From: an uncultured Microcaldota archaeon
GTDB taxonomy: Archaea; Micrarchaeota; Micrarchaeia; Anstonellales; J096
Direction of reading: 5' to 3'
NCBI GenBank assembly: GCA_938083015.1
Contig: CALKCX010000007.1
Span: forward strand, 1-40,032
Length of the DNA stretch: 40,032 bases
Shown here piece by piece: positions 5,887-7,900 of this stretch. Under the pieces are notes generated by a model that worked only from the letters and a program-made list of their open reading frames with translations, made no database searches and had not been told where the DNA came from. The position numbers and the translations under genes are program-made. Numbering within the stretch: position 1 is the stretch's first letter; every line of letters starts with the position of its first letter.

Positions 5887-7424
5887 GTTCCTATACTTTG
5901 TTTAAGTATATCAATTTCATTTTCTAATTTTTTAAACGGTATTATACTTCCGCCGAATACTATTTTATTAGGATATCTAAGATCTATATCTTGACCATAT
6001 AGTTTTAATATATTAGACGTTGTAAATGGTATAAATGGGTATAATAGTTTGGTTACAAACATTGTACCGAATAATACTTTTGATATTATTGGTTTAGCAT
6101 GATTATAATCTAGCTTCCAAGGTTCTTTTTCAGTTAATATCTTATTGTAATATCCGACTAATCCCATAGCAACTTCAAGACCTTCTTTCAATTTTACGTT
6201 ATCCATATACTCGATGTATCTATTGTATGCGTTTATCTCATCTTGATCCATATCTGTTTTTTCTAAATCTCTACCATTCCAAAGCTTCAATATTCTAGTT
6301 ATAAGATTACCATAATTAGCAATAAGATCGTTGTTAATTTTATTTTTAAAGTCATTAAAAGAAAAGTCCGAATCTATTAGACCTGATGGAGAAATTGTCG
6401 TCATGTAATATCTTATATAATCTGGGTTAATATGATTTAAAGTAGCTTCTAATGATAAAAACCATCCTCTACTTTTTGAGAACTTCTTACCTTCTAATGT
6501 TAAATAACCTCTAACCGGAATTTTATAAGGTAAATTCATATTTGCACCGTAAAGCATAGCAGGCCAGAATAGATAATGATGATAAATTATGTCTTTGCCT
6601 ATGAAATGATATATTTTAGAGTTATTCCATACTTCTCTCCAATCTCTTCTTAAAGCTCTTAAAGAACCGATATAACCTATTGGAGCGTCAAACCATACGT
6701 AAAATACTTTTCCAGGTAAATCTGGTACAGGAATTCCCCAATCTAGATCTCTAACAATATCCCAATCTTGTAAATCATCTAACCATCCTTTAAGATAATT
6801 ATATATTTCAATATCAGCTATTTTTATATTGTATTCTCTTAAAAAATTAGCAAAATAACTAAGTTTAAAAAACAGATGATCGCTGTCTCTAAGCTTAGGT
6901 CTAGTATTGGTAATCGTACAATATGGATCTATTAAGTCACCTACATGTAAAGTCTTTCCACAGTTTTCACATTGATCAGCGTATTGATCCTGTGCATTGC
7001 AGTATTTACATTTTCCCTTAATATACCTATCGGGCATAAATTTATTAAGTTCTTCACAATAATATTGAGTTACCTTCTTTTGATATATGTATTGTCTAAG
7101 AGCTTGGTAAAATTCTAATGTAGTAAACCTATTTTCTTGACTAGAAGTCCAATGGAATATATCAAATTCTATACCTAATCTTTTGAATTCTTCTAAATCT
7201 TTATTATGATAATATCTTACCAATTCTATAGGAGCTATTCCTCTTTTCTCTGCCTCTATTACTATCGGAGTACCATGATCATCTGTTGCACATATAAAAA
7301 TTGCCTGTTCTCCTTTCATCTTTAGGTATTTATAAAATATATCTGCGGGAAGATATGTACTTTTAATATGTCCTAGATGAATGGGCCCATTGGCGTATAT
7401 CAAAGCTGCAGTTATGATATTCAT
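5883..7424 (-). CDS. metG: Methionyl-tRNA synthetase (core, no C-terminal tRNA-binding appendix in the ORF)
   Basis: YANGPIHLGHI (HIGH), zinc-type CxxC pairs, KFSKSRG (KMSKS). Confidence 0.95.
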   Translation of the reverse strand: MNIITAALIYANGPIHLGHIKSTYLPADIFYKYLKMKGEQAIFICATDDHGTPIVIEAEKRGIAPIELVRYYHNKDLEEFKRLGIEFDIFHWTSSQENRFTTLEFYQALRQYIYQKKVTQYYCEELNKFMPDRYIKGKCKYCNAQDQYADQCENCGKTLHVGDLIDPYCTITNTRPKLRDSDHLFFKLSYFANFLREYNIKIADIEIYNYLKGWLDDLQDWDIVRDLDWGIPVPDLPGKVFYVWFDAPIGYIGSLRALRRDWREVWNNSKIYHFIGKDIIYHHYLFWPAMLYGANMNLPYKIPVRGYLTLEGKKFSKSRGWFLSLEATLNHINPDYIRYYMTTISPSGLIDSDFSFNDFKNKINNDLIANYGNLITRILKLWNGRDLEKTDMDQDEINAYNRYIEYMDNVKLKEGLEVAMGLVGYYNKILTEKEPWKLDYNHAKPIISKVLFGTMFVTKLLYPFIPFTTSNILKLYGQDIDLRYPNKIVFGGSIIPFKKLENEIDILKQSIGT

Positions 7425-7471
7425 GTATACCTATGATTAAATAGATTTAAAAAAGTTTAGATATATAAATA

Positions 7472-7526
7472 CACGATGATGAAACGAGGTATTACTGATA
7501 TGATGATGAATATGTTTACTGAGGTG
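7472..7526 (+). ncRNA. C/D-box sRNA (2'-O-methylation guide)
   Basis: C box ATGATGA 7476-7482; guide AACGAGGTATTA 7483-7494; D' CTGA 7495-7498; C' ATGATGA 7500-7506 or 7503-7509; D CTGA 7519-7522; closing stem CAC 7472-7474 / GTG 7524-7526. TATA-like TTTAAAAAAG at 7447-7456, about 26 nt upstream. Confidence 0.82.
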
Positions 7527-7531
7527 ATAAT

Positions 7532-7900
7532 ATGATAGTCGGAGATGTTATCAATCAAGTAGCAGTAATAATAAAAGATAGAAACAATGTACCTTTTCCA
7601 GCTTTTAATCTTAGAATTCTAGATGTAGTAGAAGATAAAGATGTTACAGTTATAAAATATGAAGTTACCTTTGATTATGGAAATGCAGGTAAAATCGTAT
7701 TGACAGGAGAAGTCTATGAGAAGGGAGAAGAACATAAATTAGCTAAATTCTGGAAGGATAATAATAAATTGCCCAATGATTACGTTCCACAATTTATGAG
7801 TTTCGTTAACTGGATAGCTACTGTACATGCAACTGTAATATGCCAAACTATTAGATTTAGACCACCATTATTGCCTTTGACTTTTAATGTAAAAGAATAA
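7532..7900 (+). CDS. Conserved-looking small protein, possibly SecB-like fold
   Basis: SD GAGGTGAT before ATG. Mid-protein beta strands and C-terminal FVNWIATVHATVICQTIRFRPPLLPLTFNV resemble SecB/DUF1608-like layout; weak, by eye. Confidence 0.4.
   Translation: MIVGDVINQVAVIIKDRNNVPFPAFNLRILDVVEDKDVTVIKYEVTFDYGNAGKIVLTGEVYEKGEEHKLAKFWKDNNKLPNDYVPQFMSFVNWIATVHATVICQTIRFRPPLLPLTFNVKE

Follow-up and report, generated by a model that had tools for sequence, protein, structure and literature searches.

Can the same bases of one archaeal transcript complete a guide RNA and, at the same time, form the ribosome-binding site of a message? The question is raised by a locus in the 40,032 nt stretch of DNA analysed here (the window), which is contig C7 of a 518 kb, 84% complete genome assembly (G000). 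The host is most likely a tiny, thermophile-like archaeon of the Micrarchaeota. At this locus, the D box of a C/D box sRNA and the Shine-Dalgarno (SD) sequence of the next gene are physically the same bases, so that one RNA cannot easily serve both. We consider it probable (about 0.7) that a phylum-wide guide sRNA has here become the entire leader of a gene for a SecB-fold protein, with mutually exclusive fates for the transcript. It offers a clean case, conserved in evolution, in which to ask whether guide RNAs that head archaeal mRNAs control translation or just share promoters.

The sRNA and its predicted targets in 23S rRNA

The predicted sRNA extends over 7472-7526 on the forward strand. 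Within 7476-7522 it has the layout ATGATGA-AACGAGGTATTA-CTGA-T(ATG)ATGATGA...-CTGA, and all four boxes are present in the order given by the initial annotation: the C box ATGATGA (7476-7482), the D' box CTGA (7495-7498) preceded by the D' guide AACGAGGTATTA (7483-7494), the C' box ATGATGA (7500-7509), and the D box CTGA (7519-7522) preceded by the D guide TGAATATGTTTA (7507-7518). The C' box can be read in two overlapping registers; that at 7500-7506 gives a 12-nt guide and a 1-nt spacer, that at 7503-7509 a 9-nt guide and a 4-nt spacer. Such a succession of C (RUGAUGA), D', C', and D boxes with guides of about 9-13 nt is the architecture of archaeal C/D guide sRNAs. The four-box pattern matches once in the window, versus 0.01 matches expected from 100 first-order Markov simulations. 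It matches 5, 8, 5, 9, and 6 times in the five genomes of the genus (5 in G000 and 28 across its four sister genomes), with no match in the reversed control. A search of the window at the Rfam gathering threshold returned only a tRNA, which places the sRNA outside the Rfam families at that threshold.

The CAC/GTG closing stem that had been proposed for the sRNA lies outside the usual kink-turn register. When the 3-nt bulge G7475-A7476-U7477 is counted, C7474-G7523 is the only direct pair, and CAC/GTG pairing is possible only by skipping G7475 and G7523.

Orthologues of the sRNA were sought across 301 Micrarchaeota genomes as a C box followed by GAGGTATT and a D' box. This D' guide family was found in 135 of the 301 genomes, and the reversed control gave no match. 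The D' guide AACGAGGUAUUA forms 11 consecutive Watson-Crick pairs with the 23S rRNA sequence UAAUACCUCGUC (11/12 overall), a length reached by none of 147 control guides, for which the 12-mers preceding any CTGA in the window were taken. The 23S target, UAAU(A)CCUCGUC, is the first one predicted by the initial annotation, which had given UAAU(Am)CCUCGUU. The D+5 rule points to LSU A1959, which aligns with U1940 of E. coli (the rRNA genes are on the minus strand in G000), and the complementarity characteristic of a guide sRNA, with its target 5 nt upstream of D', is found through the D' guide. In one sister species (G001), the guide has GGGG for GAGG, and in two others (G003 and G004) it has a G for an A beside D'; in each case, pairing is kept via G-U. 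Helices 68, 69, and 71 are hotspots of 2'-O-methylation in archaea (PMC4644070). The phylum-wide family and the 23S target support the earlier assignment as an authentic C/D guide sRNA and, as far as can be judged from the sequence, 7476-7522 is a genuine representative of this class.

The second guide behaves differently from what had been predicted. The proposed target (TAAACATATTCA) has no match in 16S or 23S rRNA, and the 20 matches that it has in the genome at ≤1 mismatch, the locus included, do not stand out clearly from the 8 of the control. Nor was a convincing target in 16S or 23S rRNA found for the D guide TGAATATGTTTA of G000. The D guides of the sister species, TAAGAGGTTCAA, TAAGAGGATCGA, and AAAGACGGTCAG in G001, G003, and G004, match the site of E. 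coli C1920, 20 nt upstream of the D' target, and so do the D guides of many outgroups (AAGAGGGT, AAGAGAGTC); several of these D guides have one internal mismatch. Among the four species, the D guide is lost only in G000, where the C and D boxes are 2-3 nt closer together than in the sister species. From this comparison, the D guide of G000 is a decayed orphan. In sRNA orthologues from other families, a longer, hairpin-like D'-C' stretch replaces the short spacer (L068-L073, L085, L092-L096, L160-L162).

Promoter, Shine-Dalgarno sequence, and downstream gene

A palindromic TATA box, TTTAAA (7446-7451, on both strands), precedes the C box by 30 nt and the predicted 5' end of the sRNA by about 26 nt, where the initial annotation had indicated a TATA-like element. 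On the minus strand it lies 27 nt before the ATG of the divergent Met-tRNA synthetase (MetRS) gene. The distance from TTTAAA to the C box is 30, 31, 31, and 32 nt in the four species. For most promoter-proximal genes of the window, TTTAAA is located 22-33 nt before the ATG, and these genes appear to be leaderless. Given this spacing, transcription is predicted to start at the 5' end of the sRNA or within a few nucleotides of it. There is no space for a second promoter, because TTTAAA is 86 nt from the ATG of the downstream gene and the D box only 9 nt. The geometry of the element thus agrees with the earlier proposal that sRNA and gene are served by one promoter. The palindrome has the right spacing for both the leaderless MetRS gene (-) and the sRNA (+) (7424-7476), and the gene pair 5079-/5128+ seems to have a common TTTAAA likewise (at 32 and 22 nt). 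In Nanoarchaeum equitans, promoters have their TTTAAA 26 nt before the start (PMC3491384).

The D box is followed by GGTGATAAT and then by the ATG at 7532. The SD sequence TGAGGTGAT (7520-7528, forward strand; GAGGTGAT as the SD stretch of the leader) is complementary to the 3' end of the 16S rRNA (...GATCACCTCAA), and it has TGA in common with the D box. Of the 35 window genes scanned, none has a longer SD match. In all four species, the D box CUGA continues into the SD sequence UGAGGUGA at 9 nt from the AUG, and the overlap of D box and SD claimed in the initial annotation is therefore not confined to the window. A putative kink-turn motif adjoins the SD sequence in the leader and the promoter is upstream of the sRNA, which is the layout of an L7Ae-repressed mRNA. 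Folding of the leader alone yielded no stable intrinsic structure in three of the four species; for the leader from G004, a fold was predicted (z -2.1). Because the leader folds so poorly by itself in three species, occlusion of the SD would need protein.

The downstream gene (7532-7900, forward strand) codes for a protein of 122 aa. Its AlphaFold2 model (pLDDT 89, pTM 0.81) has a four-stranded sheet and two helices (E2-14, E24-35, E38-48, E53-63, H67-77, H85-107). Foldseek matched the model to SecB and Rv1957 with a probability of ~1.0 and E ~2e-3, and SecB (1FX3) and Rv1957 (5MTW) are among the best structural matches (TM 0.49-0.60). A Pfam search with the window protein gave no match, a Pfam/NCBIfam search across 16 family members gave no credible one, and a search of PDB sequences yielded no name for the protein. 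Since the sequence searches were devoid of a curated-family match, we assign the SecB fold only and do not call the protein SecB; as modelled, it is a chaperone-like protein with this fold.

Distribution of the merger

In four species of one genus (G000, G001, G003, G004), the sRNA is located directly 5' of the gene for the SecB-fold protein, with the sequence CTGAGGTGA-NAAY-ATG at the junction. TGATGA of the C box is likewise kept in all four, and the D box CTGA does not vary. These carriers are four species only, and all of their assemblies are incomplete. The geometry of the junction is fixed even though the proteins from G001, G003, and G004 share only 54%, 56%, and 27% identity with that from the window. 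Neither the gene nor the sRNA was seen in the fifth genome of the genus (G002), and relaxed sRNA searches in this genome and in G006-G009 gave no match. Elsewhere in the family and order, other genera retain the gene, usually with an SD (AAGAGGTGAAACC-ATG and similar) and without C/D boxes in front. In G005, the sRNA is located elsewhere, before the gene for Trm1. Because sister species have the merger and other genera lack it, it appears to have arisen within this genus. The strict CTGAGGTG merger was found, among the 301 genomes, in these four species and in one case from G008 which involves a different sRNA.

Members of the sRNA family precede other genes as well. They lie within 45 nt 5' of differing ORFs at 29 of the 71 loci examined (uncorrected for chance), and an ancient 23S methylation guide is thus repeatedly found in this position across the Micrarchaeota. 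In G005 (L089), the ATG of the Trm1 gene overlaps the D box. In several other genera, the 23S guide sRNA is found 2-20 nt before a gene which reads by eye as an AlaX-type alanyl-tRNA editing protein (L134, L142, L147, L148, L156, L157, L163).

Further C/D sRNAs are associated with other genes. A second one from G000 (G000:C8:74025-74073, L057) is the leader of a gene for a Trm5/TYW2-type tRNA methyltransferase and is kept in G001 (L060). The junction reads CTGA GTGATTATT ATG, again with a distance of 9 nt between D box and ATG, and the D guide matches CGTCAAGTCA in 16S rRNA (10 bp). In G008 (G008:C66:12210-12261, L063), the SD of an Hsp20 gene has merged with an sRNA from a different family (AAATGAACAAACT/GACAGCG), giving CTGAGGTGGTGGTATG. 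These other pairs of sRNA and gene, hsp20 in G008 and the Trm5-type gene in G000, may be reinventions of the layout. In G003 (L035) and G001 (L036), a beta-CASP ribonuclease gene has a C/D sRNA 5-11 nt upstream of its ATG. Other C/D sRNAs are directly before or after tRNA genes, as tandem precursors (L042, L044, L045, L053, L092), and two sRNAs occur in tandem (L033, L034).

Two possible fates of one transcript

According to our preferred reading, RNA polymerase would start from TTTAAA at 7446 near the 5' end of the sRNA and continue into the gene. L7Ae, Nop5, and fibrillarin would assemble on the nascent RNA, and exonucleases would then trim it to the sRNP. The trimmed particle would take with it the D box and the 3' flank, that is, most of the SD sequence, and its guide would direct 2'-O-methylation in helices 69-71 of the 23S rRNA. 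Where no sRNP assembles, the leader would stay open and its strong SD would recruit ribosomes. Each transcript would thus probably serve as guide RNA or as message, not both; it is the geometry of D box and SD that leads us to expect this exclusion. All four genomes have genes for L7Ae-family proteins and fibrillarin, and three have one for Nop5 (protein family matches in G000: one for fibrillarin, two for the L7Ae family, one for Nop), so that an sRNP can form. In G000, its assembly could be less efficient, given the lost D guide and the weak terminal stem.

Parts of this scheme have precedents. As reviewed in PMC7994747, C/D sRNAs which overlap the 5' ends of genes make up 7% of the archaeal sRNA genes surveyed, and the start codon is often downstream of the D box in such placements. 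The same source, citing Tripp 2017, states that the internal boxes suffice for an sRNA to mature, nucleases cutting the transcript back to the body of the sRNP, and that a 5' overlap lowers the output of a downstream reporter. Our locus shares abutment or overlap and, as predicted, cotranscription with these cases (Tripp 2017; Randau 2012; Lui 2018, as reviewed in PMC7994747), but differs from them, as far as they are described there, in that D box and strong SD have become one element, at a fixed distance of 9 nt from the AUG in four species. In Sulfolobus, L7Ae represses translation via a kink-turn beside or over the SD in the 5' UTR of its own gene, l7ae (PMC5539422). Here, too, a putative kink-turn motif is directly beside or over the SD; L7Ae autoregulation involves a simple cis kink-turn and the gene of an sRNP protein, whereas our locus has a SecB-fold gene and a full guide RNA of two motifs, with its target in 23S rRNA. 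A stable noncoding RNA also serves as 5' UTR in the minimal genome of N. equitans, where the 5' half of tRNA-His leads the valyl-tRNA synthetase gene, but this is a tRNA half and not a C/D sRNA, and an overlap with an SD is not reported in the passages of PMC3491384 consulted; tRNA-sRNA dicistrons are also described there. In summary, both the placement of C/D sRNAs at the 5' ends of genes and the masking of an SD by L7Ae have been described before. What appears to be new is that D box and SD have bases in common and that this is conserved; the literature searched, which covers Tripp 2017 through PMC7994747, does not describe it. The literature search returned no report of C/D sRNAs in Micrarchaeota.

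The arrangement could plausibly reflect genome compaction and nothing else. The sRNA would then have settled beside a pre-existing SD, with its D box reusing the GA, and both products would be made in excess from one promoter without regulation. The compact genome of 518 kb, the AAGAGGTGA-type SDs which outgroups already carry before the gene, and the 29 of 71 loci with the sRNA family upstream of differing ORFs are all consistent with this. Compaction alone leaves the fixed 9-nt geometry and the fixed D box unexplained, but translation and guide function together could account for them.

The invariance of SD overlap and spacing across the four species can also be read as the mark of a switch. 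L7Ae or the sRNP, bound to the C/D kink-turn, would mask the SD, protein synthesis would fall when free sRNP proteins are abundant, and this coupling would have been selected. The Sulfolobus case, in which masking of an SD beside a 5' UTR kink-turn by L7Ae lowered GFP (PMC5539422), provides a precedent, and an SD which is the longest match among 35 window genes would suit such control. Yet translation constrains the spacing from SD to ATG anyway, outgroup genera retain gene and SD without the sRNA, and sRNP formation may just remove the leader. We thus regard a selected switch as possible but doubtful. It is with similar reserve that we suggest that sRNP assembly, by destroying or hiding the ribosome-binding site of the mRNA, might inversely couple the supply of the 23S guide to synthesis of the SecB-like protein.

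A fading guide function in G000, with the element kept chiefly for its role as leader or as a site for L7Ae, is improbable: the loss of the D guide in this species only, its shortened C-to-D interval, and the weak stem point in that direction, but all four boxes are intact and the D' guide pairs at 11 of 12 positions. That the boxes, short and AT-rich like the genome, resemble an sRNA by chance is refuted in practice by conservation, given the phylum-wide orthologues, the rRNA complementarity, and the absence of any match in the controls.

Nearly the same sequence, coding for a protein C-terminus (TNPSLLL...NLPVESNNIKIKGFW), is found at both ends of the contig (31-282 and 39424-39861); this repeat probably broke the assembly.
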